Of a DNA stretch of 64,000 bases, positions 50,994 to 64,000 are shown piece after piece. The stretch is taken from contig NZ_CP083374.1 in the NCBI RefSeq assembly GCF_017488845.2, positions 1 through 64,000 of the forward strand, given 5' to 3'. Source of the DNA: Ensifer canadensis. Lineage in GTDB: Bacteria > Pseudomonadota > Alphaproteobacteria > Rhizobiales > Rhizobiaceae. The stretch's first letter is position 1; the number at the start of each line of letters is the position of its first letter. The notes under the pieces are model-generated. The model did no database searches and was not told the origin of the DNA. It saw only the letters and a program-made list of their open reading frames with translations. The position numbers and the translations under genes are program-made.

Positions 50994-52103
50994 CTAGTTC
51001 GGAGCGATTGCCTTGACACCGGCAGAACTGAGATGGCCACATCGCCAGACACCGTAGCCAGCGTTGGTATCCCAGTCATAATAGAACGCGGCTTCCAATC
51101 GCGCTGACGATATGAGGTCGCTAAAAACCGATCGTATCGCCGCCACCGCCTTGGTGCGCTTCTGGTCGTCGAGCGGGCAGGAACGGGCGGAGTTCGCCAC
51201 GCCCCATTCGGTGATCCAGCAGGGCTTGCCCGTCTCCCCTGCCCCACAGAAACGAAGGAGTTCGCGGATATAGCCGGCAAGCTTCGGCCCTGCCTTGCGT
51301 CCCGGATAGACGTGAATGCCATAGGCATCGACATACTCGTCGAGCCCACGCGATTTCAGTAGGGTGACCACTTCTTCCGGGTCCAGGCGCTCCATGCCCC
51401 TTTGATCCGCCTCCCCGGCGCTCATGTCGGACAAACCGGCCGAAACGACCACCGCGTCGCGGCTATGGATCGTCGCCTTCAGCTCCTGCCGGGTAATCCT
51501 GGCAACCTCCACATAGGTTGCCAGTCCTCGCTCGAAGGCCTGCCTGTTGCGGATGTCGGAGACACGGCGCGGTGTGACGGCACCGGGTTTTCGATAAACG
51601 ACGAGATCGCCATTGTAGGCGCTGTAATTGATCTCGTTACCGGGCTCGACGGCCACGAGCGTAACGCCTGCATCGTCCAATCTGCGCAATGCCGCCTTGA
51701 GGCTTTCGCGGTACTTCGCCGGATCGAGGTCAGAGAGGCGGCGAATGTCCCAGATACGACCGAAGCCGGTTCGAGCACGAACCTCATCCGCATAGTAGTC
51801 GGGATTCGCGAGCTGAATCTCCAGCAGGATCTTCAACCCGAGGCCATGAGCGATCTCGACCGCGTCGATGCTCTTGTCTACCGGGGCTGACAGGGATAGC
51901 CGCACGTGGGTTGCACCGCTCGCGGCGATGTCACCAAGGATTTTTCCCTGCTCGTCGGGTGTCTGCCAAGCGAGATTGACCCTATTGATCCCGACGATCG
52001 CCGCCGGGTTTTGATCCCGTGCGATCGCCGACCTGGTTTCGAAGACAAAAAGCGAAAGCAGCGCGCAAAGAAGGACCGTGCGCGCTGCAACCTTCCATGC
52101 CAC
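50994..52103 (-). CDS. Secreted glycoside hydrolase-like protein (TIM barrel)
   Basis: A protein of about 369 residues with an N-terminal signal peptide (VAARTVLLCALLSLFVF...SAIA) and a barrel resembling clan GH-A glycosidases: VAVEPGNEINY, with the acid/base position NE, and the later CWITEWGVAN, where Glu in TEWG fits the nucleophile. It would act on polysaccharide in the periplasm or outside. I favour a GTG start at 52103, just after the preceding stop; the ATG at 52151 would overlap the pyruvyltransferase gene by 44 bases. It is the last gene of the polysaccharide unit. Confidence 0.7.
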   Translation of the reverse strand: MAWKVAARTVLLCALLSLFVFETRSAIARDQNPAAIVGINRVNLAWQTPDEQGKILGDIAASGATHVRLSLSAPVDKSIDAVEIAHGLGLKILLEIQLANPDYYADEVRARTGFGRIWDIRRLSDLDPAKYRESLKAALRRLDDAGVTLVAVEPGNEINYSAYNGDLVVYRKPGAVTPRRVSDIRNRQAFERGLATYVEVARITRQELKATIHSRDAVVVSAGLSDMSAGEADQRGMERLDPEEVVTLLKSRGLDEYVDAYGIHVYPGRKAGPKLAGYIRELLRFCGAGETGKPCWITEWGVANSARSCPLDDQKRTKAVAAIRSVFSDLISSARLEAAFYYDWDTNAGYGVWRCGHLSSAGVKAIAPN

Positions 52104-52107
52104 GCGC

Positions 52108-53280
52108 TCAGATCCCAATCTGGCCGAGCACATTTCTGAAGTTGGTCTCACAGGCGCGATAACGGTCGACGGCCGCCTCAGCGTCGATCTTGGAAAGGAA
52201 GTTCGAAAGATAGGTCCGCTTGTCGGCCTCGCGATTCCAGGTTGCCGCCTCGATATAGGGGAAGCCGATGAACTCGAGCATTTCGCGCATGCGGTCGTCG
52301 ACCGCGATCATCAGCGCCGGAACGCCAGCCTGCATGCCGATGATGCAGCCATGGAACCGACGGCCGAAACACATGTCTCTGGTCGTCGTCCAGCCTCGCC
52401 ATTGGTTGGTGTCGAAGAAGGTGATCAGCTCGTGTTCGCGCTGCCACTTCTCCTTGTGCTTGTACTGCGTCGCCCCGGTAATGCGTCCACTGGCGCGATC
52501 GTAAACCGGGGTCGTATCATCACCCGGCAGATCGAGATTGTAGGCGATGACCTCGTCCTGGACCACATAGCTGGCAACGGACTTCGGCCCAAGCAGTGCA
52601 TGCGCGTCGACGATCGTGTCGGCGACGCTGCCGAGGTAACCACCGAAGGCGATCTTCTGCGCGTCCGCCAAGGCCGGGTTGGCAAGTGCCGTCAGCGATC
52701 GGACCATTTCGTTCGGGGCGAAATAGAGCGAGGGGCAGCCCGTCGGCTTGACGAATTTCATCCCCTGCTCTCTCAGGAACTCCGCGGTAAAATAGCCGCG
52801 TGTCAGGAAGAAGCTTTCCCTGTTCCTGAGCACGTCCAGGAACTTGAGCGTGCCTGCCGGCAGCAACTCCTTGAGACCTTCCTTGCGCTGGATGCCGATG
52901 CCCATCACCACCACAGGCATCTTCAGCTTGGCGAAAACCTCGGCTTCGAGATCGGCGGAATATCCGGGCCGCAACAGGTTGGCGGAAGCGAAGACGCAGA
53001 TATCGAATTCGCGATTTGCCTGCTCGTAGACATCGTCCGAGGTGCGATTGTTGACCAGGTGCCAGAAGGGCACATAGGTGACATCGTGCCCCCGCAGGCT
53101 TTGTGCAGCACCCTCGCCGATCAGATAATTGCCGGTATTGGCGATTCTCCTGACCTGGGAGAGGAAGTCCTTCTTCGCCGTCACCTCGTCGAAATACGGG
53201 CGGTGGTGCACCGTCATGCCGGCAACTGAGCCGATCGTGCGCTGCAGATACGAGGGGATCCCTGTAAGTAAGATACGCAT
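52108..53280 (-). CDS. Polysaccharide pyruvyltransferase-family protein (copy 1)
   Basis: A 390-residue protein of the polysaccharide pyruvyl transferase (CsaB/WcaK-like) family: NTGNYLIGEGAAQSL near the N-terminus, CPSLYF in the middle and the C-terminal signature RRFHGCIIGMQAGVPALMIAVDDR. It should transfer pyruvate from PEP to a sugar hydroxyl as a ketal, or serve a related ketalase role. It is a tandem paralogue of the next gene upstream (53323-54501), with 42 bp between them. Confidence 0.85.
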   Translation of the reverse strand: MRILLTGIPSYLQRTIGSVAGMTVHHRPYFDEVTAKKDFLSQVRRIANTGNYLIGEGAAQSLRGHDVTYVPFWHLVNNRTSDDVYEQANREFDICVFASANLLRPGYSADLEAEVFAKLKMPVVVMGIGIQRKEGLKELLPAGTLKFLDVLRNRESFFLTRGYFTAEFLREQGMKFVKPTGCPSLYFAPNEMVRSLTALANPALADAQKIAFGGYLGSVADTIVDAHALLGPKSVASYVVQDEVIAYNLDLPGDDTTPVYDRASGRITGATQYKHKEKWQREHELITFFDTNQWRGWTTTRDMCFGRRFHGCIIGMQAGVPALMIAVDDRMREMLEFIGFPYIEAATWNREADKRTYLSNFLSKIDAEAAVDRYRACETNFRNVLGQIGI

Positions 53281-53322: not shown

Positions 53323-54501
53323 CTAGTGACCGATGCCGATTTCCCGCAAAGTCGAACGGAATGTGCGCTCGCGATCGGAATATCTGTCGACGAGCTCCGA
53401 AGCATTGAGCTTCCCCAGATGGTCGGCGACGAATTCGCTGCGGTTCTCGGCGCTGTCGATCTCGTTGATGTCGACTGCAGGCAATCCGGTGTAGCCGAGC
53501 ATTTCGCGCATGCGGTCGTCCACCGCGACCATCAGGCTCGGCACGGCCGCCTGCATGGCGATGATCGAGCCGTGGAAACGGCGACCCAGATTGAAGTCCA
53601 TCGACGAAGCCCAGGCTCGCCACTGGTTGGTGTCGAAGAAGGTGCGCACCTGGAATGGCTTGCCGAGCCTGTCGGCGCCGGGATAGGCGAGGTTGCCCAC
53701 CATCGTGCCCGACGCCGTGTCGTAGACGCGCCCCTCCCCATTGGGCTCGACGCTCATGTCGAAGTGCAGAAACTCGTCCTGGACCACGTATTGCGGGACG
53801 CTGTCGCCGCCAGGCAGAGCCTTGGCATCCAGGACCGTATCCTGATTGCCGCCAAGGTAACCGGAGAAAATGGTGCGCGCCTTGCCGACATCGACCTCAG
53901 GCAGCTTTCTGAGCGATTTCCGCATGTTGTCGGGCATGAAATAGACGGACGGGCAACCGGTCGGCCGCACGAAGTTAAAGCCTTGATCTTTCAGGAAACC
54001 TTCCGTCTCGAAGCCGCGCGTCAGGAAGAAGTGCTCACGCTCCTTGAGAATGGCCAGCAGCCGCTTCGTGCCCTCTGGCAGGTTGTTCTCCAGGTCCTTG
54101 CGGTTCTGCTGACCGATGCCGAGCATGACGATCGGCATCTTGAGCTGCTCGAGCACATCGGCTTCCGCGTCGGCCGAAAGCCCCTTGCGCAGCAGATTGG
54201 CGCAGGTGAAGACGCAGATATCGAAATTCGAATTGAATTCGTCGAGGCCGACGCCATTCTTGGCGCAATTATAGAGATGCCAGAACGGCACGTGCTTGGC
54301 GTGGGGTGAAAGCGCGCGCAGGGCACCTTCGCCAATGAGATAGTTGCCGGTGTTGCTGATATTGCGCAACTCCTGCAGAAACTCCTCTTTCGTCTCCGGC
54401 TGTTTTTGACGCTCCGCATAGGAGACGGACAAACCGTGGGCGCCATTGACGAGGCGGGTGTAGTGACCGGGAATACCGGTCACAAGAATCCTTGCAGGCA
54501 T
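53323..54501 (-). CDS. Polysaccharide pyruvyltransferase-family protein (copy 2)
   Basis: A 392-residue paralogue of copy 1, sharing NTGNYLIGEGALRAL, GCPSVYFMPDN and GRRFHGSIIAMQAAVPSLMVAVDDR. The two probably modify different sugars or linkages of the same polymer. It follows the fused glycosyltransferase after 36 bp on the same strand. Confidence 0.85.
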   Translation of the reverse strand: MPARILVTGIPGHYTRLVNGAHGLSVSYAERQKQPETKEEFLQELRNISNTGNYLIGEGALRALSPHAKHVPFWHLYNCAKNGVGLDEFNSNFDICVFTCANLLRKGLSADAEADVLEQLKMPIVMLGIGQQNRKDLENNLPEGTKRLLAILKEREHFFLTRGFETEGFLKDQGFNFVRPTGCPSVYFMPDNMRKSLRKLPEVDVGKARTIFSGYLGGNQDTVLDAKALPGGDSVPQYVVQDEFLHFDMSVEPNGEGRVYDTASGTMVGNLAYPGADRLGKPFQVRTFFDTNQWRAWASSMDFNLGRRFHGSIIAMQAAVPSLMVAVDDRMREMLGYTGLPAVDINEIDSAENRSEFVADHLGKLNASELVDRYSDRERTFRSTLREIGIGH

Positions 54502-54537: not shown

Positions 54538-57213
54538 TCAACTGGCCGCCCGGATGCCGGCGTCTACCGCTGGATCCGCTGGAAAGACGGCCGTTCTTGA
54601 CTGGGACGAGTTATCGACCCAGGTGTCGCACCACGCGAGAAACTGCGAAAACGAGGATGTCCACGAACGACGGGATGCAGTCTTGATGCAGCCTTCGATC
54701 AGCGGAGCAAGTTGGTCTGGGTTGCGGGCAACCGCCTCGATGGCCTGTGCCATCGACCTGACGACTTCGGGATCGGCCGCCGCATGGATCAGCACGCCAT
54801 CTTCGCCGTCGATGATGAGTTCGTCGACGGCGCCAACCGCCGTGGCAATCGGAACGCATCCGAGCTGCTGCGCCTCGGCGATGGCAAGCGGCGCGCCTTC
54901 CCAACGGGACGGCATGACGAGCACATCCGCCCAGGACAGTGCCTTGATGAGTTCCTTGCTGGCGAAGGCCGGTGGACGGACGTCGACGGAGAGATCCTTC
55001 AATCGTTCCGTCCATGAGACGCTCGAGTCGGCAAGAATCTCGCCGCCGACGGCACGCGCCTCGAATGGAACATTCCTCGCGCGAAGCTCGGACAGCGTCG
55101 CTGCCAGCCTGTCGATCCCCTTCTGCCGATCAAGCCGCCCCATGTAGAGTACATGCAAGCGCGCATCGTCGCGCGGCTGCCGTCGGGCGGCGATCACGTC
55201 TGCCTGGACTTTCGGTGGCACCGTAAAGCCCGCGCTGTTGGAGACGGCAAAGACCTTTGCGTGCGGCACGCCAAAACTGTGCAGGTAGGTCTTCAACTGC
55301 TCGGAGCAGGTCAGGAACGCGTCGTAGCAATGTTCGTGGGCTATCGCGGCAAAAGGCTGGCCCGCCGGGCGCTTGAACGCAGTGTTGTCGACGACGTGAA
55401 GATAGCATGCCGTGCGCGTTCCCTCGGAACGCAGCCGGGCGATGAGGGGATGGACGGCCATGACATGGTTGTTGATCACCAGATCGAAACCAGACAGCTG
55501 GCCCTTCAACGCCTGCCAATCGACGCCATGCCCGTCAGCGATGAAATCCTGTCCGAGGAATGAGCCCGACCCGCCCCATGCAGGAACGCCGGCATCCCAG
55601 AAGTGAATGTGATCAAAGCTCGCATCGAATTCGTCGATGACATCCATCTTGGCGCTGCCGAGCACGAACAGATGTGTTTCGAAACCGGTTCGCTTCAGCT
55701 CGCGCGCGACAGCATAAATGACCTTTTCGGCTCCCCCGAAAGAGGCATTCGGCACCAGCAGAGCCGCGGTGCGCTTGCCGGAGCTGTGACCGAGCGGCAG
55801 GATCGGCGAACCACCGACTTCCCTTCGCAGCTCCTTGTATAGCTCGCCATAGGGCACCAGCCGCGACGGCCGCCACGTCCACCGTTTGCCCGCCGTATGG
55901 CGCAAGGGGCTGGAAGCGATGGCATTGATGCAATTGATCATCATCTGCTGCGGGGTGATCAGCGAGCGGCGCGACAGGCTCTTGGGGAATGGAAAGCGAA
56001 CTTTCAGCAGCGTCACCGTCGGCCAGACCTGCTGGTTGCCGATCGATGCGAACCACTCCAGCGCGTTGTTCTGGATCACGTCTCTGACCAGCGGCGTCGG
56101 AAGGAAAACAAGATCCGCCGGCCCGACATTCTGCGAACCTGCCGGTAGCGCAACTGCCTCGATCCCGCGCTTCACGCCGTCATTTGCAAGCTGCACGAAC
56201 AACGCGTTGGTATTTTCGCTCAACCGCTCCAGGTGGGCGAGAATGTTTGGAAGCATGCGCGAGCGCAATAAGAGATCGAAAGCCGAACCACTGCCCGCCA
56301 CGAGAAAGGGCGGGAAGTGTGCATTGTCGGGTTCGCCGACATTTGCCCAGAACGCCGGGATGATATCGTCCAGCCGAAGCACGGTTGGTGCCTTGGTCGG
56401 ATCGGTAAACAGCGAGATCGACGCATTTTCGGTGCGGGCGAAGAGATAGCGCGGCGCTTCCTCATGCTCGAAATCGACGAGCATCGGCCGGCGATACAGA
56501 GCCTTGTGGCGTTTTCTGAGGTAACTGACCGAAGTAGCGCGTTCCCGGTTGGCTTCCTTGAAACGGCTTTCGGCGCGCAACCGATACTCAAAGACCGTGT
56601 CGTGGCATGGCACCCCGACGAAGCCGTTCTCGATGCAGGACAACCAGAATTCCCAGTCTTCAAATCCGTTCTGCCGGTCGTCGCTGAAGCGCACGCCGGC
56701 GCGGAAAACGTCGATGGAAATCAGCGACCCCGTGTCGCAAATGTTGTCCGTGATGCAATGCGCCAGCCGCGAATACTGATTGCCGTAATGCGCGCGCCAG
56801 GATACCGAGAACGTATCGATGTTGGTATAGACCCAGCCACAAGCACTGCTGCCGAGCTTTTCATAGAGGGTCTCGATGGTGCGAGGCAGGACGCGATTGT
56901 CGGCATCGAGGAAATACACCGCCCGCGCCTCGGGCAGATGCTCGAGAATGAAGTCGATGGCGCGGTTGCGGGCACCACCCGGCCCCGCGTTGCGGCCGAA
57001 TATCACGTGAATGAACGGATGGACCGCAGCATAGAGCAACAGCTGGTCGAACGTTTCGTGGCACGGGTCGCCATCGACCGAAACCACGATCGCAAGCCTG
57101 GAGGTGTTCAGATCGGACGCAAGAGCGGATTCGATGGCTTCCAGGACAAGCGCCGCATGACCGTAAAGCGGCATCGCGATGGCGATGAGATCGGCCTCTG
57201 GATTACCTGGCAT
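54538..57213 (-). CDS. Fused GT2-GT4 glycosyltransferase
   Basis: An 891-residue fusion of two glycosyltransferases. Residues about 8-240 are a GT-A fold GT2 domain with VSVDGDP and the metal-binding DAD (103-105, VYFLDADNR). A long linker of about 230 residues follows. Residues about 490-870 are a GT-B fold GT4 domain: GGAEKVIYAVARELKRTG, LHVLYMGRLDRQKGIDRL and the EX7E segment MPSRWEGAPLAIAEAQQLG. Two sugars could be added in sequence by one protein. It overlaps the upstream gene by 11 bases. Confidence 0.88.
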   Translation of the reverse strand: MPGNPEADLIAIAMPLYGHAALVLEAIESALASDLNTSRLAIVVSVDGDPCHETFDQLLLYAAVHPFIHVIFGRNAGPGGARNRAIDFILEHLPEARAVYFLDADNRVLPRTIETLYEKLGSSACGWVYTNIDTFSVSWRAHYGNQYSRLAHCITDNICDTGSLISIDVFRAGVRFSDDRQNGFEDWEFWLSCIENGFVGVPCHDTVFEYRLRAESRFKEANRERATSVSYLRKRHKALYRRPMLVDFEHEEAPRYLFARTENASISLFTDPTKAPTVLRLDDIIPAFWANVGEPDNAHFPPFLVAGSGSAFDLLLRSRMLPNILAHLERLSENTNALFVQLANDGVKRGIEAVALPAGSQNVGPADLVFLPTPLVRDVIQNNALEWFASIGNQQVWPTVTLLKVRFPFPKSLSRRSLITPQQMMINCINAIASSPLRHTAGKRWTWRPSRLVPYGELYKELRREVGGSPILPLGHSSGKRTAALLVPNASFGGAEKVIYAVARELKRTGFETHLFVLGSAKMDVIDEFDASFDHIHFWDAGVPAWGGSGSFLGQDFIADGHGVDWQALKGQLSGFDLVINNHVMAVHPLIARLRSEGTRTACYLHVVDNTAFKRPAGQPFAAIAHEHCYDAFLTCSEQLKTYLHSFGVPHAKVFAVSNSAGFTVPPKVQADVIAARRQPRDDARLHVLYMGRLDRQKGIDRLAATLSELRARNVPFEARAVGGEILADSSVSWTERLKDLSVDVRPPAFASKELIKALSWADVLVMPSRWEGAPLAIAEAQQLGCVPIATAVGAVDELIIDGEDGVLIHAAADPEVVRSMAQAIEAVARNPDQLAPLIEGCIKTASRRSWTSSFSQFLAWCDTWVDNSSQSRTAVFPADPAVDAGIRAAS

Positions 57214-58684
57214 TCAGGGCCTCCGTCGACTGCTTTACCAGTCGGAAGCTCGACAACTTGAGCCAGCAAAAATCGACGGTCTCATCCACGGCCCGGCTGA
57301 GGATGATCAGATCCATTGGAACGCGGATCGCTTCGTCCATCTGCATGCTGATGCTGATGGATTGCTGGCCACCGACTTCGCGCCAGCCGCTGAACAGGGT
57401 CGAAGGTTTCACCGAACCCTTGCGTGCGAGCTCGGCGACTTCCGCGCGCGCGTTCGAACTGGCGGGGCTCAAGAGAAAACTGACGGCTGCCGGCGCGCCC
57501 TTGGGATGATCGATAATGGCGCTTGCCGACAACGAGACGGTGCCAGGCTCGATGGCGCGGTTGATCGCCCCGGCTGAGATACCGGTCGGCAGCGGGTGGC
57601 AGACGATCGCATGTTCGTGTTCGAGGAACCGGATCGTCTGGAAATCCGGGACGATCTGGGTCACCGAAACGTCAGTGATCTGGCTGAGCTTCTCGATCCC
57701 CAGCCTGTAATCGACGGTAAATTGTCCTTCCAGCAAACTGGTGGGAGCGATCATGTTCGCGGTGCTGGCGGGCTTGACCCCGGGCAGCCCCGTAAACACC
57801 CGGAACGCAAGCGGGCGCAGGTCAAGGTCAGGATGCGGATGTTCCGATCGCGCCGAGTAGCGCTCGCTGGCGATGTGGTGCCCGAGCGAAAGGCCAAGCG
57901 CGTCGGAGCCGCTTGCAGATACGCGCAGGCGAAGTGTCCTTGCCGCGCCGCCGCACGCACGCGGCAGAGAAAAGAAGTTCCAGCCGGAAACCAGGCCGAC
58001 ATAGGGAACATTCCATTCCGCCACGCCTTCGCCACTTTCCAGGTAGTTCAAAGTGACGATGAGCTCTCCACTGCCCTTCGGCAATGAGTGCAGGTGAAGC
58101 GCGAAGCCGGCGACCCCGAGGCTCGAGACGGGCAGGAGCTGCTCGATGAACGCGCTGCTCAACAGCTGCCCTACACCCTCGTCCTTCGGATCGGCAAAGG
58201 GATCATGGGCAAAGACTTCGGCAACCGGCTCCCAGTTTCGCGCATGGAAGGCGTCTTCCAGAAGGCGATAGTTTTCGAACAGTTCTTCGCGCTCACGCCT
58301 CAGCATGGCGAGTTCCGACGTGATCGAAGCCGAATATCGGGCGAGCCGGCCTACTCCGTCTTCGGCAAGCGCACGCAGGAGCGCCGAGCTCTCCGCCACA
58401 TTGACCGGGTCAAGACGCAGGACCGCCAGCTCCGGGAGCGTTCGCAAGGCAGACAGTCGCGCCAGCCCCTTCTTCAGGTCCACCTCTGCCTTGTCGGAAA
58501 AGGCGACCGCGGCGATCGGAAACGTATCCTTCAACGTGTCGAAGGAACCACCGTCGGCTTCCACATAGTCCACCAGATGGGCAACATTGCTGCCCTGCAA
58601 GATCGCCCGATCGCGATCCGATGCCAGAAGCAGCTTTTTCAAACCGAGCCGAGGCCCCATGGCGGAGTGTCTTACTTCTTGCAC
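57203..58684 (-). CDS. Unrecognised 493-residue protein of the polysaccharide locus
   Basis: A 493-residue soluble protein. I do not firmly recognise a family; it may belong to a domain of unknown function seen in rhizobial polysaccharide loci. An N-terminal alpha/beta region (about 1-110) is followed by a helical stretch (MLRREREELFENYRLLEDAF), then a beta-rich half (about 160-490) resembling carbohydrate-binding folds (ALHLHSLPKGSGELIVTLNYL). There is no signal peptide. The start is 58684 or 58660 (MGPRLGLKK). It is the first gene of the unit running to 50994, with the MarR-type palindrome about 160 bp upstream. Confidence 0.7.
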   Translation of the reverse strand: MQEVRHSAMGPRLGLKKLLLASDRDRAILQGSNVAHLVDYVEADGGSFDTLKDTFPIAAVAFSDKAEVDLKKGLARLSALRTLPELAVLRLDPVNVAESSALLRALAEDGVGRLARYSASITSELAMLRREREELFENYRLLEDAFHARNWEPVAEVFAHDPFADPKDEGVGQLLSSAFIEQLLPVSSLGVAGFALHLHSLPKGSGELIVTLNYLESGEGVAEWNVPYVGLVSGWNFFSLPRACGGAARTLRLRVSASGSDALGLSLGHHIASERYSARSEHPHPDLDLRPLAFRVFTGLPGVKPASTANMIAPTSLLEGQFTVDYRLGIEKLSQITDVSVTQIVPDFQTIRFLEHEHAIVCHPLPTGISAGAINRAIEPGTVSLSASAIIDHPKGAPAAVSFLLSPASSNARAEVAELARKGSVKPSTLFSGWREVGGQQSISISMQMDEAIRVPMDLIILSRAVDETVDFCWLKLSSFRLVKQSTEALNAR

Positions 58685-58842
58685 GTAACGCCCTCAGAAG
58701 AAACGATAACGCATATCGATGGAGTTTCTGAACCGACGACAGCTATACTGTCGATCGCCATTCATCACGCTGATTACGTAGCAGTGAATTTCGCAGTGCA
58801 CAACGGCAAAATACATAGCACGCCCAACAATAAACATAACAA

Positions 58843-58863
58843 ATACTTCAATATTTGAAGTAT
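58843..58863. promoter_or_regulatory. MarR-type palindrome, copy 2 (upstream of glycosyltransferase unit)
   Basis: ATACTTCAA (58843-58851), TAT, TTGAAGTAT (58855-58863) is a perfect palindrome. It matches the palindrome before marR (60748-60772) through ATACTTCAA versus TTACTTCAA. It lies in the only non-coding gap upstream of the 58684 to 50994 unit. Confidence 0.7.
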
Positions 58864-58878
58864 ATTGAAATGCTACTG

Positions 58879-60108
58879 TCACATTGCTGCGGGACGCCCC
58901 GTCATCGTTGTCATGAGGTCTCGCTGACGCAGCAGGCAATCCTCGAGCCGGAAGCGCCGCTCGACAGTCCTTCGCGCTGCCGCCCGCATGCCGACGGACG
59001 CCTGCGGATTGCTGACGGCGCCGAGGATTGCTTCACTGAGCGCGTCGGCGTCGAAGAACGGCACAAGGATACCGTTGTGACCCGAGCGAATGACTTCGCG
59101 AACCGGAGGCGTGTCGGATCCGATAACCAAGGCGCCGCATGCCATGGCCTCGAGCACGGACCAGGAAAGCACGAACGGATAGGTCATGTAGACATGCGCA
59201 GCGGAGACCTGAAAAAGCTGGCGAAGGATGTGGTGCGGGACAACGCCTGGAAAGATGATGTTGTCAGGCGACACGTCAAGCGAGGCGAGCAGGTGCGATT
59301 TCCATGAACCACCGCCAGGAGGCGGCGGCCCGTAGCTGGTTCCGTCACCTCCGACGAAGACGAAAACCGTGTCAGGGCGCTTCTTCACGACCTGTGCGGC
59401 GGCCTGCAGTGCCTGGGGAAAACCACGATAGGGCTCAAGATCGCGGGCGACAAAGGTGACCACCGGCGGATCATTGGCCTTCAGCACGCGACCGTCCGGA
59501 AGCCGCACCGACGCCGAAGCGTTGGGGCGGAACAGCGCGGTATCGATACCTTCGTGGCAAACGGCAATGCGCTCGCGCGTATCGGCGGGATAAAGGCTCT
59601 TTTGCCATTCGGTGGGGCTGATGCCGCCATCCATGGCTTCCAGTGACAGCAATTGCGCGACGTTGCGCAGTCGCAATCTCTTGCGCTCTTCGAGGTCGGG
59701 TTGATCGTCGGGCGCAAAGCCGATATCGGCCCCCTGCGACCGATAGAAAAACTCGCAGTAGCCAAGGGCCGGAACGCGAGGAAGGGCATCCTTGACGAAC
59801 ATCATGCTGCCCCAGCCGATGTGGCCGACGACGATGTCCGGCGTCATGTCCTGTCGCGTCATCGCATCGAGCGTTTCGGCAACGCGATGTCCGATCCGGG
59901 CATGGTGATCCGGCACCGCCATGTGCCGAGCGATGGCCGCGGACATGCGCGGCCCGGGCTCGGCCCGGTGCCGAATGACGCGCACGGACGGAATCTTCTG
60001 ATCCACGGTTTCGGTGATCAGGCTGACGCTGTTGCCGGACCGCACCAGGTCAGCCGCCAACGCGGCGAACTGGCCGAAGCCGCGCCGATGAACAAATGCC
60101 ACATGCAT
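58879..60108 (-). CDS. GT4-family glycosyltransferase
   Basis: A 409-residue GT-B glycosyltransferase. An N-terminal acceptor domain begins MHVAFVHRRGFGQFAALA. The donor domain has VVTFVARDLEPYRGFPQAL and PFVLSWSVLEAMACGALVIGSD with a conserved Glu. It starts 48 bp after the marR-like gene and so is probably in its transcript. It lies just upstream of palindrome copy 2. Confidence 0.87.
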   Translation of the reverse strand: MHVAFVHRRGFGQFAALAADLVRSGNSVSLITETVDQKIPSVRVIRHRAEPGPRMSAAIARHMAVPDHHARIGHRVAETLDAMTRQDMTPDIVVGHIGWGSMMFVKDALPRVPALGYCEFFYRSQGADIGFAPDDQPDLEERKRLRLRNVAQLLSLEAMDGGISPTEWQKSLYPADTRERIAVCHEGIDTALFRPNASASVRLPDGRVLKANDPPVVTFVARDLEPYRGFPQALQAAAQVVKKRPDTVFVFVGGDGTSYGPPPPGGGSWKSHLLASLDVSPDNIIFPGVVPHHILRQLFQVSAAHVYMTYPFVLSWSVLEAMACGALVIGSDTPPVREVIRSGHNGILVPFFDADALSEAILGAVSNPQASVGMRAAARRTVERRFRLEDCLLRQRDLMTTMTGRPAAM

Positions 60109-60156
60109 GCTATCTAATCCGCTACCTGAATGACGTCCACATTGGGTTCTGCCCGG

Positions 60157-60729
60157 TCACATGTCGTAACGTGACGCGCTGCCCCAGACGAGTTCGAGTT
60201 GATGCAGGGTCTGAAAGGCGGTCTCCAGGTTCTGGCGATCCTGATGGCCGCGATTGAGCGCCCGCTCGTAGGCCATCGCCGCGTCGCGCAAGTTCGCCCT
60301 CAGCAGCCGGCCCTTTTCCGTAAGCTTGATGCGCGCCGAACGCTTGTCGCGCTGGGAGGCAACCCGATCGATATAGTCGCCATCTGCAAGTTGCTTCAGA
60401 TAGTACGACACGTTCGAGCCGACATAGTGCCCGCGATCGAGCAGCTCGGCCACCGACAGCTCGGCATCTCCGATTGCCAGCAAGACCATGGCCTGAGCCG
60501 GACCGATGTCGTCGACACGCAGCTTGGTCAGCTCGGCGCGCACCAAACCGGAAAACCGCCTGCTCACCCTCTCCATCAGGCGCGCAAGCTCGAAATAGGT
60601 CAGCTGTCGGCAATCGTTCGCGGCTTCGGCTTGATCGTGGGCTCCTACCGCCTTCGACGTCTGCTCCTCCTGCTGGAGCAACGACACATCTTTGATCCCC
60701 GTGGACGGATAGAGTACTCTTTCATTCAT
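60157..60729 (-). CDS. MarR-family regulator of the polysaccharide locus (WggR/ExpG-like)
   Basis: A 190-residue MarR-type winged-helix protein: YFELARLMERVSRRFSGLV, then LDRGHYVGSNVSYYLKQLADGDYIDR and the wing SQRDKRSARIKLTEKG. It resembles rhizobial MarR proteins of the LdtR/ExpG (WggR, MucS) type, and ExpG sits beside type I secretion genes in the S. meliloti EPS II cluster as this one does. I chose the ATG at 60729, preceded by GGAGAG. An ATG at 60741 has no ribosome-binding site. A perfect palindrome lies 19-43 bases before the start. Confidence 0.85.
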   Translation of the reverse strand: MNERVLYPSTGIKDVSLLQQEEQTSKAVGAHDQAEAANDCRQLTYFELARLMERVSRRFSGLVRAELTKLRVDDIGPAQAMVLLAIGDAELSVAELLDRGHYVGSNVSYYLKQLADGDYIDRVASQRDKRSARIKLTEKGRLLRANLRDAAMAYERALNRGHQDRQNLETAFQTLHQLELVWGSASRYDM

Positions 60730-60747
60730 CCAACTCTCCATTTCGAA

Positions 60748-60772
60748 ATTTACTTCAAATCTTGAAGTAAAT
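60748..60772. promoter_or_regulatory. MarR-type palindrome, copy 1 (divergent marR / type I secretion region)
   Basis: ATTTACTTCAA (60748-60758), ATC, TTGAAGTAAAT (60762-60772): 11-bp perfect arms with a 3-bp spacer in the 192-bp divergent region. It would control both marR and the secretion operon. It shares its core with copy 2 at 58843-58863. Confidence 0.75.
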
Positions 60773-60921
60773 CAGACTACAACATCCCCTCCCCTCTACC
60801 TTGAACTTGCATTACCTCTTGCTTTTGTGCCACACATAGCGAAGCAATACTACGCTTCACCCTATTTTAAAGCCAGACGTCCTCCACGGATGGCTTTAAC
60901 GTCAACCTCAGGCTACTGCCC

Positions 60922-62703
60922 ATGCGTGATACTGTTCGGAACGAGACGATAAGCAACGCTCAAATTTTAGGGGTTCTGCGCCAGGATGAAATTATCAATC
61001 CAAGATTGCTAATATTGCAAGCCAAGCGTGTGTTTCTTTCCGTATCACTTTACGCCGCATTGCTCAGTGTCTGCATAAGCCTGCTTCAGCTCACGATACC
61101 GCTGTTCATGTTGCAGATTCATGACAGGGTTCTCAACAGCCAGAGCTTTGATACGCTCACCATGCTGACGCTGCTCGCGATCAGCGCATTGGTCGTCTAT
61201 GGGGTCCTAGATCTTATCCGAGCCCTTGCTTTCCAAGCGATGGGCAGCGCCATCGTGCGAAGACTGAATGCTCCGGTTCTGGCATCGGCGGTGCAGGCAT
61301 CGGTGAACCAGGGGCTTACTCGCGCCGCCCAATCCCTCCGCGACCTGTCGGAACTTCGCAGCTTCCTCACTTCATCGGCTGTGGTCGCGCCGCTCGACGC
61401 CGCTTGGTCCCCGATCTTTCTAGGGGCGCTGTTCCTGCTGCATCCGCTTTTCGGCCTGATCGGCGTCGTGTCCGTGGTGTTGCTCGTGTGCTGCGGACTG
61501 GTCAACGATTTGATGACGCGCCAGCTCACCAAAGAGGCCAACCAGGCGAATGTCGAAGCGGTCTCGAAGATCGCCGGCTCCCTTAGGCACGCCGAAGCGA
61601 TCGAGGCGATGGGTATGTTGCCGGCGCTCGCAAGGCGCTGGCGTGGCCTGCAAATCCACGCTTTGGGCGCTCTTGAGGCCGGAGGAACCAGGAGCAGGGC
61701 GATGGCGTCGCTGACGCGCAGCCTGCGCTATTCGATCCAAGTGATCACGCTCGCCGCCGGCGCCCTGCTGGTTCTCGACCAGGCCATCACCCCCGGCCCG
61801 ATGATGGCTTCGAGCATCCTTGTCGGCCGTCTGCTCATCCCCTTCGACACGATCATTGAAAACTGGCGCCAATGGGTGCTTGCCATTGCCGGCTGGCGCC
61901 GGCTCGAGGCGGCGATCGGCGAAGATCTGGCAATCCGCCAGACGACACCGACGCCCCATTCGGTCGGCGACGTGGGCGACATGATTGTGGATAAACTCGT
62001 TTACGCCGTCCCCGGCGTCGAGGTTCCGATCATCAAGGGCATTTCCTTCTCGCTTTCCCCCGGCGAAGTGCTGGGCGTGGTCGGCCCGTCGGCCGCCGGA
62101 AAATCGACGCTGGCCCGGCTGCTGGTCGGCATCTTGAAGCCGACCTCGGGTGGGGTCTTTCTCGATGGCCACAATACTTATCTTTGGGAGCGCGGGTCCT
62201 TTGGGGAATCGGTCGGATACCTCCCGCAATCGGTATCGCTGCTGGAGGGCACGATCCGGGAAAACATTGCCAGAATGGAAGATGGGGACCCCTACAAGGT
62301 CATCGAGGCCGCGCGGCTTGCAGAAGTGCACGAGATGATCGGCCGCCTGCCGCTCGGCTATGACACGCCCGTCGGCGATGGTCACCTGACGCTTTCCGGT
62401 GGACAAAGGCAGCGCATCGCGCTGGCGCGCTGCCTCTACAATCGCCCGCGCCTAGTCGTTCTCGATGAACCCAATGCCAACCTCGATTCGCTTGGCGAGC
62501 GCGCGCTGGTGCGTGCGATCCAGCGCATGCGCGACCAGGGTGCCATCGTCATCATGATCGCCCACCGGCCATCGATCATGCAGGTCGCCGACAAGCTTCT
62601 TGTCCTCGAAAATGGTCGTATCAGCCAGTTTGGGCCGCGAACGGATATCCTGACGACCGTGCCTGGGCCCGGCGAAACTCGGCGCGAGGTTGCTTCCGCA
62701 TGA
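60922..62703 (+). CDS. Type I secretion ABC transporter/permease (PrtD/ExpD1-like)
   Basis: A 593-residue export ATPase: an N-terminal membrane domain (about 35-330, six helices) and a nucleotide-binding domain with Walker A GPSAAGKST (388-396), signature LSGGQRQR (491-498), Walker B LVVLDE (511-516) and H-loop IAHRP. There is no N-terminal C39 or C39-like domain. The type matches exporters of RTX-like Ca-binding proteins and the S. meliloti ExpD1/WgdA. It overlaps the HlyD gene by four bases. The exported substrate is not in the window. Confidence 0.9.
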   Translation: MRDTVRNETISNAQILGVLRQDEIINPRLLILQAKRVFLSVSLYAALLSVCISLLQLTIPLFMLQIHDRVLNSQSFDTLTMLTLLAISALVVYGVLDLIRALAFQAMGSAIVRRLNAPVLASAVQASVNQGLTRAAQSLRDLSELRSFLTSSAVVAPLDAAWSPIFLGALFLLHPLFGLIGVVSVVLLVCCGLVNDLMTRQLTKEANQANVEAVSKIAGSLRHAEAIEAMGMLPALARRWRGLQIHALGALEAGGTRSRAMASLTRSLRYSIQVITLAAGALLVLDQAITPGPMMASSILVGRLLIPFDTIIENWRQWVLAIAGWRRLEAAIGEDLAIRQTTPTPHSVGDVGDMIVDKLVYAVPGVEVPIIKGISFSLSPGEVLGVVGPSAAGKSTLARLLVGILKPTSGGVFLDGHNTYLWERGSFGESVGYLPQSVSLLEGTIRENIARMEDGDPYKVIEAARLAEVHEMIGRLPLGYDTPVGDGHLTLSGGQRQRIALARCLYNRPRLVVLDEPNANLDSLGERALVRAIQRMRDQGAIVIMIAHRPSIMQVADKLLVLENGRISQFGPRTDILTTVPGPGETRREVASA

Positions 62704-64000
62704 CCGACAAACAGATGCTTCCGCTTCGTCCGCAGCCTTCAGAGCCCGTTGTCAGACCGCTGGCAAAAATCGCCCCTCAGGCGGCACCGACCCTGGCCGA
62801 TATCGATGAGGCGCATTCCGAACGCGCGCTTCGCCGCCTGATGGTGGCGGGGCTTGCGACCATCATCGTATCCTTCGGTGGCTTCTTCACATGGGCGGTG
62901 TCGACGGAACTCAGCAGCGCGACCGTTGCCAACGGCAGCGTGATCGTCGACTCCAAGCGCAAGACGATCAGCCATTTCGAAGGAGGTGTCATGGGGCGCC
63001 TTCTGGTTCAGGAGGGCGAACAGGTGGCCGTGGGTCAGCCGCTCATCCTCTTGGAAGACACGCGGGCACGCTCCAACTTGAATGCCCTCACCAGCCGTCG
63101 CATCGGCCTCATTGCCAGGCTCGCCAGGCTCAAGGCGGAACAGGACGGCGCCGCCGCAATCGCCTTCCCAAAAAATTTCGGCGAAGCCGGCGAGATCGCC
63201 GTCGACGAAGCGATCAAGGCGGAGAATGTCTTCTTCGACAAGCGACACGAGGCCAAGGCCGGGCGCGTCGACGTTCAGACGAAAACGATCGAGGAATATG
63301 GCGAACAGACAAAATCGCTGCTCATCCAGCTCGAAGCGACCGACCGGCAGATCGCCCTCATCACCGAACAGCGCACCGCAATCGCCACGCTGGTCGAGAA
63401 GGGCTTCGTGCAGCGCGCGAAGCTCATCGAGGTCGATACGCGCCTGAGTGAGCTCGCCAGAGCGCGCGGCGAACTGGCCGGAGACAAGGCGCAGGCAGAA
63501 AAGGCAAGGGCTGGCGCCCAACTCGCGTTGATCGGCATCGAAAGCGAGTTTCAATCGACCATCGCGGGTGAGATAACCACGGCGCGCATCGACCTGACGG
63601 ATGTCGAAGAACAGATCGTTGCGGCAAAGGATGTCTTGCGGCGCATGGAAATCCGCTCGCCCCAGGCAGGCGTGGTCAGCAACATCTGGCTGCGTACCCC
63701 CGGAAGTGCTGTCACGCCTGGCCAGCCCCTGATGGAAATCGTACCCGAAGACGAGCCGTTGGTCGTCGAGATGCGCGTCAACCCTCGTGACATCGACAGC
63801 ATATCGGTGGGCTCTCCGACGCAGATCCGTCTGACCGCCTACAATCAGCGCTCGCGCATGCCCTTCAATGGCGCGGTGACCTACATTGCCGCGGACCAGA
63901 CGGTCGATGAGAAGTCGGGTGCCTCCTATTTCACCGCTCGCGCCAAGATCGATGCGGCGTCTCTTGCTGCCGATCCCGATGTTCGCCTGTATCCGGGGGC
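62700..64000 (+). CDS. Type I secretion HlyD-family adaptor (PrtE/ExpD2-like), 3' end beyond window
   Basis: At least 433 codons, open to the end of the window. A cytoplasmic proline-rich N-terminus of about 45 residues precedes one TM (LMVAGLATIIVSFGGFFTWAV). Next comes the lipoyl half-motif KRKTISHFEGGVMGRLLV, a long coiled coil (about 130-300) and the second half with RSPQAGVVSNIWL. It bridges the ATPase to an outer-membrane TolC-like channel. The ATG overlaps the ATPase stop by four bases. Confidence 0.9.
   Translation, partial: MTDKQMLPLRPQPSEPVVRPLAKIAPQAAPTLADIDEAHSERALRRLMVAGLATIIVSFGGFFTWAVSTELSSATVANGSVIVDSKRKTISHFEGGVMGRLLVQEGEQVAVGQPLILLEDTRARSNLNALTSRRIGLIARLARLKAEQDGAAAIAFPKNFGEAGEIAVDEAIKAENVFFDKRHEAKAGRVDVQTKTIEEYGEQTKSLLIQLEATDRQIALITEQRTAIATLVEKGFVQRAKLIEVDTRLSELARARGELAGDKAQAEKARAGAQLALIGIESEFQSTIAGEITTARIDLTDVEEQIVAAKDVLRRMEIRSPQAGVVSNIWLRTPGSAVTPGQPLMEIVPEDEPLVVEMRVNPRDIDSISVGSPTQIRLTAYNQRSRMPFNGAVTYIAADQTVDEKSGASYFTARAKIDAASLAADPDVRLYPG

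Follow-up and report, generated by a model that had tools for sequence, protein, structure and literature searches.

Results

Genes of the cluster

The window, that is, the whole stretch of 64,000 nucleotides analysed (C5:1-64000 of Ensifer canadensis), carried at its right-hand end part of an exopolysaccharide cluster (Table 1). A minus-strand unit running from a wgaA-like gene to a glycosidase-like gene was preceded by a wgcA-like glycosyltransferase gene and the gene of a MarR regulator, and a type I secretion pair diverged from the latter on the plus strand. Beyond the window the cluster continued with an RTX gene and further wge-side genes up to a GT4 gene at C5:72409, and these were followed by a third PS_pyruv_trans protein (C5:73756) and a GalU-like protein (C5:74940), which scored just under the cut-off of the GalU model. 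Homologs of rmlA, rmlB, rmlC or rmlD were found neither in the window nor in C5:56001-96000, save for the GalU-like gene (27% to rmlA), and rmlC was present in two copies elsewhere in the genome. The gene names wggR, wga and so on, as applied to pSymB of the alfalfa symbiont Sinorhizobium meliloti, were assigned from position and gene order.

The longest open reading frame of the MarR gene started at 60741. The alternative start at 60729, which gives 190 aa and had been used in the sequence-only reading of this DNA, was more likely, since GGAGAG just precedes the second ATG and the annotated start in Neorhizobium galegae aligns there. The protein was 69% identical over 194 residues to the product of positions 983901-984482 of S. 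meliloti 1021 pSymB, and its winged helix (residues 78-146) was identical at 62 of 69 residues. A PDB search with the protein returned remote MarR structures only (best E 8.7e-06). The gene occupied the genomic position of S. meliloti wggR, with the same neighbours on both sides, and by these sequence comparisons its assignment as a WggR (ExpG) ortholog is well supported.

A second secretion set was observed about 20 kb from the first (L011:5459-10507, equal to C5:81459-86507), with an ABC protein at 27% identity, an HlyD protein at 29% and a putative TolC-like frame. No box with up to two mismatches was found in L011.

Table 1. Features of the cluster in the window, with the basis for each assignment; identities are to S. 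meliloti.
Feature	Position	Strand	Basis
Glycosidase-like protein, closes wga-like unit	50994..52151	-	Glyco_hydro_cc, barely reaching the Pfam cut-off; 63% to L012:26742-27758 (339 residues)
Polysaccharide pyruvyltransferase 2	52108..53280	-	PS_pyruv_trans E 1.2e-19; 81%
Polysaccharide pyruvyltransferase 1	53323..54501	-	PS_pyruv_trans E 2.4e-14; 83%
Fused GT2-GT4 glycosyltransferase, wgaB-like	54538..57213	-	891 aa; 78% along its full length to an ORF of 893 aa
DUF6212 protein, wgaA (expA1)-like; opens the box 2 unit	57203..58684	-	DUF6212 E 2.9e-119; 66%
Candidate wga promoter TTGTGC-N17-TACGTA, downstream of box 2	58775..58803	-	Putative assignment
WggR-type box 2	58843..58863	.	Between wgcA-like GT4 gene and wgaA-like gene; exact core
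Glycosyltransferase family 4, wgcA (expC)-like	58879..60108	-	Glyco_trans_4_3 E 5.6e-55; 77% to L012:18630-19850
WggR (ExpG)-type MarR regulator	60157..60729	-	Pfam MarR_2 E 1.4e-12; 69%
WggR-type box 1	60748..60772	.	marR / type I secretion divergent region; exact core; boxes of relatives
Candidate wgd promoter TTGTGC-N17-TACTAC, downstream of box 1	60825..60853	+	In conserved block; putative assignment
Type I secretion ABC transporter, wgdA (expD1)-like	60922..62703	+	ABC_tran E 2.2e-31; 77%
HlyD-type adaptor, wgdB (expD2)-like	62700..64000, continuing to C5:64100	+	67%; ORF L010:6700-8100

Palindromic boxes and their rarity in the genome

Both inverted repeats named in the sequence-only reading were present. 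Box 2 read ATACTTCAA-TAT-TTGAAGTAT, with perfect 9-bp arms, and box 1 read ATTTACTTCAA-ATC-TTGAAGTAAAT, with perfect 11-bp arms, each around a 3-nt spacer, so that the earlier description as perfect palindromes applied to the arms and not to the spacers. The two shared a 17-bp core, ACTTCAA-N3-TTGAAGT.

Scanning of the whole genome (8,094,229 bases, or 8.09 Mb, in 6 contigs) gave two exact copies of the core, both in the cluster, none with one mismatch and seven with two mismatches. Many copies at unrelated genes, which the sequence-only reading had held to speak against a regulon, were thus not seen. The reversed control pattern had 12 genome matches with up to two mismatches, so two-mismatch copies alone were at chance level. 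Within the window the core had three matches with up to three mismatches (two exact and one with three mismatches) against 1.02 expected; at least three such matches were reached by 10 of 100 shuffles, and this count is therefore unremarkable, the weight resting on the two exact copies.

Box 3 (C5:64134-64150) was one of the seven two-mismatch copies; it lay 5' of the RTX gene, 134 bp beyond the end of the window. By score alone it is no better than genome-wide chance, and it rests on its position and on the relatives described below. Together with the wge genes it lies outside the window, and was for that reason invisible to the sequence-only reading. Of the six two-mismatch copies outside the cluster, five fell inside mechanical open reading frames with a minimum length of 80 aa, two of which measured only 86 and 102 aa; the remaining copy (C1:3367837) straddled the start of a 356-aa frame. 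A wider regulon in the genome was considered and set aside, as these six copies do not exceed the control rate. A literature search with the letters of the motif returned no paper that was on the subject by its title.

From the end of the box to the start codon downstream, the distance was about 160 nt for box 2 and wgaA, about 143 nt for box 3 and the RTX gene, and about 150 nt for box 1 and wgdA. Box 1 also lay 18-42 nt before the likely start of marR, which makes control of the regulator by itself very likely. Downstream of box 1, a block of TGTG[CT]CA with AATA 17 nt on was conserved in 12 aligned sequences; downstream of box 2, TTGTGC was conserved in 10 aligned sequences and the second hexamer varied. 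Ahead of the RTX gene, the 12 loci used for the alignments showed no conserved promoter-like block.

Comparison with the EPS II cluster of S. meliloti

Eighteen proteins from C5:50994-75848 were compared by tblastn with 40 kb of S. meliloti pSymB. The first 16, from C5:50994 to the GT4 at C5:72409, had colinear homologs at 44-83% identity. On the wge side the identities were 81% for the RTX protein, 63% for a GT2, 65% for a methyltransferase, 74% for a GT4, 64% for a 243-aa protein, 44% for a 748-aa protein (C5:70166) and 66% for the last GT4. The third pyruvyltransferase and the GalU-like protein gave weak matches only, to other S. meliloti genes.

The sequence-only reading had taken the gene content to differ from that of S. 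meliloti. This was rejected, as the tblastn comparison matched the very genes supposed to differ: the two pyruvyltransferases, the fused GT2-GT4 protein and the glycosidase-like protein were colinear in S. meliloti at 83, 81, 78 and 63% identity. Its suggestion of a polysaccharide system perhaps not yet described was likewise not supported, with sixteen consecutive genes colinear between the species.

In S. meliloti 1021 the box on the marR side (wggR/wgdA region) was exact (L012:17856), the box before wgaA had one mismatch (L012:19883) and the box before the RTX gene had two (L012:14464); elsewhere on the 1.68-Mb pSymB, two other matches with up to two mismatches were found, against two for the control pattern. 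The likeness of the two clusters thus comprised an orthologous MarR regulator, the gene order from wge through wga, including wgd, wggR and wgcA, and boxes with a common core at the three equivalent places. They differed in that the exact core occurred at marR and wga in E. canadensis but only at marR in S. meliloti. S. meliloti carries rmlA-C-B-D homologs after its glycosidase gene, whereas the E. canadensis locus does not, and the third pyruvyltransferase and the GalU-like gene of E. canadensis have no counterpart in the 40-kb stretch of S. meliloti.

Boxes in related loci

Scanning of genome contigs gave 68 related loci, mostly from Ensifer/Sinorhizobium, Rhizobium, Neorhizobium and Phyllobacterium and also from Nitratireductor; the closest, at 98%, were in Ensifer adhaerens SD006 and Ensifer sp. 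LC163. These EPS-II-type loci shared marR, the secretion genes and the wge-side genes with E. canadensis but varied in their end genes. The marR-side box was present with up to two mismatches in all 67 scorable loci (shuffles 0.07%). The wga box was present at that threshold in 35 of 55 (shuffles 0.36%), with up to three mismatches in 46 and with at least four in 9. For the wge box the corresponding counts were 41 of 67 (shuffles 0%), 56 of 67 and, for worse matches, 11 of 67. The controls were single-base shuffles, 20 per region, and did not preserve dinucleotides; unscored were 13 loci for wga (12 without a wgaA match, and L165 without a cluster), one for wge and one for the marR region. Among sites with up to two mismatches, the distance from box to wgaA was 144-162 nt in 32 of 35, and the distance from box to gene on the wge side was 143-224 nt in 40 of 41. 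Related loci are not independent events because of shared descent, and the stronger point is that three promoters of one genome share the box at a similar spacing.

In a second tabulation of 28 loci (that of E. canadensis, 3 named loci and 24 from 23 family genomes), 27 had the marR-side box with up to two mismatches. The exception (L097, also L165) was a lone MarR copy, the second (64%) of Ensifer sp. USDA 6670, which lay on a small contig with no cluster genes and no box. N. galegae pNgVX carried the three equivalent boxes and a fourth near its rml genes. In Pararhizobium sp. A13 the marR-side box was exact, the candidates at wge all had three mismatches, and wga had no candidate.

Both ends of the cluster varied among 14 family genomes. 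At the wga end, rml genes were present in five (G057, G145, G257, G221, G290) and absent in eight, one contig being too short; the wga unit itself was absent there in G063 and G212. At the wge end, the third pyruvyltransferase was present in five (G270, G290, G063, G016, G212) and the GalU-like gene in six (G270, G057, G145, G140, G221, G290), the contig of G154 ending there. Because presence varied in this way, the differences in end genes are ordinary variation, and the dTDP-sugar genes, absent from the E. canadensis locus, are treated as variable rather than defining for EPS II clusters.

Co-occurrence of regulator and box

Among 297 family genomes, the regulator was called in 24 (E ≤ 1e-30) and a box with up to one mismatch in 70. 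The box was found in 23 of the 24 genomes with the regulator against 47 of the 273 without it (Fisher p = 3e-15, with related genomes not being independent), and the reversed control pattern was matched in 7 of the 24. The sole regulator-bearing genome outside this count (G071) had two-mismatch boxes at marR and wga. As 47 of the 273 genomes without the regulator also matched, the box pattern by itself lacks specificity; G297 (source of L102), the nearest of the genomes searched, had 13 matches with up to two mismatches against 14 for the control.

Diverged MarR relatives (38-50% identity; Chelatococcus, two Azospirillum and five paralogs from family genomes) had residue changes in the presumed recognition helix. 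No box with up to three mismatches was found around these eight (about 3.4 kb scanned per paralog), and L101 had one site at four. The clusters of Chelatococcus sp. CO-6 and the two Azospirillum, composed of marR, type I secretion, calcium-binding protein and glycosyltransferase genes, resembled the E. canadensis locus in having marR (or galE-marR) divergent from the secretion genes. They differed in a MarR protein of 42-45% identity, in having no box with up to three mismatches and in having no wga-like genes annotated in the stretches examined. Inverted repeats were also looked for at the promoters of Chelatococcus and Azospirillum, and no shared motif emerged.

Discussion

A probable conserved WggR regulon

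It is highly probable that the locus is an Ensifer EPS-II-type (wg/exp) cluster orthologous to that of S. meliloti, and that the palindromes are the operators of its own WggR-type MarR regulator. The parallel with WggR/ExpG drawn in the sequence-only reading was supported by the orthology of the regulator, the boxes of S. meliloti 1021, the 68 related loci and the co-occurrence over 297 genomes. Reviews describe ExpG/WggR as binding to conserved short palindromes that precede expA1, expG/expD1 and expE1, with loss of binding when the palindromes are mutated (PMC1403797, PMC3233446). Position in the S. meliloti DNA suggests that the boxes found there correspond to this published site. Activation of wga, wgd, wge, wgcA and of its own gene is attributed to ExpG/WggR, working with PhoB, MucR and ExpR (PMC1403797, PMC3233446, PMC3418255); a repressing action is also listed (PMC10458429), and five operons, wga, wgcA, wggR, wgd and wge, are given for the S. 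meliloti cluster (PMC3233446).

In E. canadensis, a WggR dimer would bind the 17-bp core at three places: box 1 between marR and wgdAB, box 2 ahead of wgaA and the genes that follow it and, more weakly, box 3 (C5:64134) ahead of the wge unit that begins with the RTX gene. A likely sigma70-type promoter would lie downstream of the boxes, an arrangement that suits an activator acting with other regulators (MucR, PhoB and quorum sensing in S. meliloti), and the product would presumably be an EPS-II-like polymer. A crude scan for PHO boxes, the PhoB sites that overlap WggR sites in EPS II clusters, gave no more matches than shuffled sequence in the E. canadensis locus and in S. meliloti alike, and was uninformative.

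Other accounts of the boxes are much less probable. That they are operators of another regulator, for example PhoB, MucR or a LuxR-type protein, with the MarR gene as a passenger, is improbable. Several regulators do act at the S. meliloti promoters according to PMC3233446, and members of the MucR and LuxI families occur in the E. canadensis genome, one of the former and four of the latter (the five LuxI matches include two fragments of a single frame). Nevertheless, the box tracked the MarR gene across genomes and, at up to three mismatches, was missing around its eight diverged relatives, and binding of ExpG at the equivalent promoters is reported in a review (PMC1403797). Box 2 lies 15 nt past the stop codon of the GT4 gene and could be that gene's terminator or mRNA hairpin, its likeness to box 1 being accidental; this is very unlikely, as its stem is AT-rich and has no T-run, its core is identical to that of box 1, further copies precede marR and the RTX gene, and its spacing to wgaA is conserved. 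A chance pair of palindromes, to which the chance-level number of two-mismatch matches would lend itself, is scarcely credible, being already contradicted by the genome scan, with its two exact copies both in the cluster and none at one mismatch, and by conservation of the box in S. meliloti and the related loci.

Nature of the polymer

The locus is very probably a related copy of the known EPS-II-type system with a conserved WggR regulon, and not a new kind of system. Compatible with this reading, which concerns the regulon, is the tentative possibility that the polymer itself is distinct from the acetylated, pyruvylated galactoglucan of EPS II: the Ensifer clade with this locus may make a chemically distinct EPS-II-like polymer, more pyruvylated and made with no dTDP-sugars supplied by the cluster, the WggR switch being otherwise unchanged. 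The lack of rml homologs at the wga end, the third pyruvyltransferase and GalU-like protein at the wge end and the 44% identity of the protein at C5:70166 point in that direction. On the other side, the core glycosyltransferases and both wga-side pyruvyltransferases are colinear at 63-83% identity, the rml genes after the glycosidase gene are a variable trait among the family genomes, and rmlC is present elsewhere in the genome. If the polymer is distinct, the biosynthetic operons would have exchanged their ends under a control logic that did not change.

Relation to earlier work

Comparative prediction of an ExpG regulon is not new, as a computational study (PMC4560400) already lists, for each S. 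meliloti strain, a predicted set of about six regulated genes, together with how far it is conserved in nearby rhizobia. Among the papers listed by literature searches, no title concerned the box in the Ensifer clade of E. canadensis, a weak negative given poor coverage of subscription papers. Through the comparison, a regulator-operator pair known from a single model symbiont is extended to tens of species, and the 67 marR-side sites are natural candidate binding sites for reading the WggR motif. It also separates the genes of the cluster that recur from those that can be exchanged at its ends, the latter being the dTDP-sugar genes, the GalU-like gene and the third pyruvyltransferase gene.

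Variant arrangements among the relatives

In the cluster of Pararhizobium sp. A13, short rmlA, rmlB, rmlD and GalU-like pieces stood at both ends (L014:29787-30061 and 6708), like remnants of lost end genes. Twelve Phyllobacterium-type loci (L149-L160, the last being Phyllobacterium brassicacearum STM 196) kept marR, the GT4 gene and the secretion side, with no wgaA- or wgaB-like gene beside the GT4 gene in the stretch examined, which in L155 extended only about 3 kb past that gene. In G212, where no wgaA-like gene follows the GT4 gene, an exact box (L198:6697) lay about 190 nt before a second set of DUF6212, GT2-GT4 and pyruvyltransferase genes at 27-38% identity to those of the window. This set would be a wga-like unit, diverged or replaced, that sits at the opposite end of the cluster and has a box of its own. 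An exact box off the cluster in G189 (L196:3351, C34), inside a 147-aa mechanical frame and with a GC-rich flank on one side, is probably due to chance. A further box with one or two mismatches was found beyond the wge end in G057, G145 and G140 (L173:6423, L177:6324 and L179:6791, respectively) and at L013:5816; it lay about 25 nt before a 314-aa frame in G057 and adjoined the rml genes in N. galegae, and is a possible lineage-specific fourth target of WggR.
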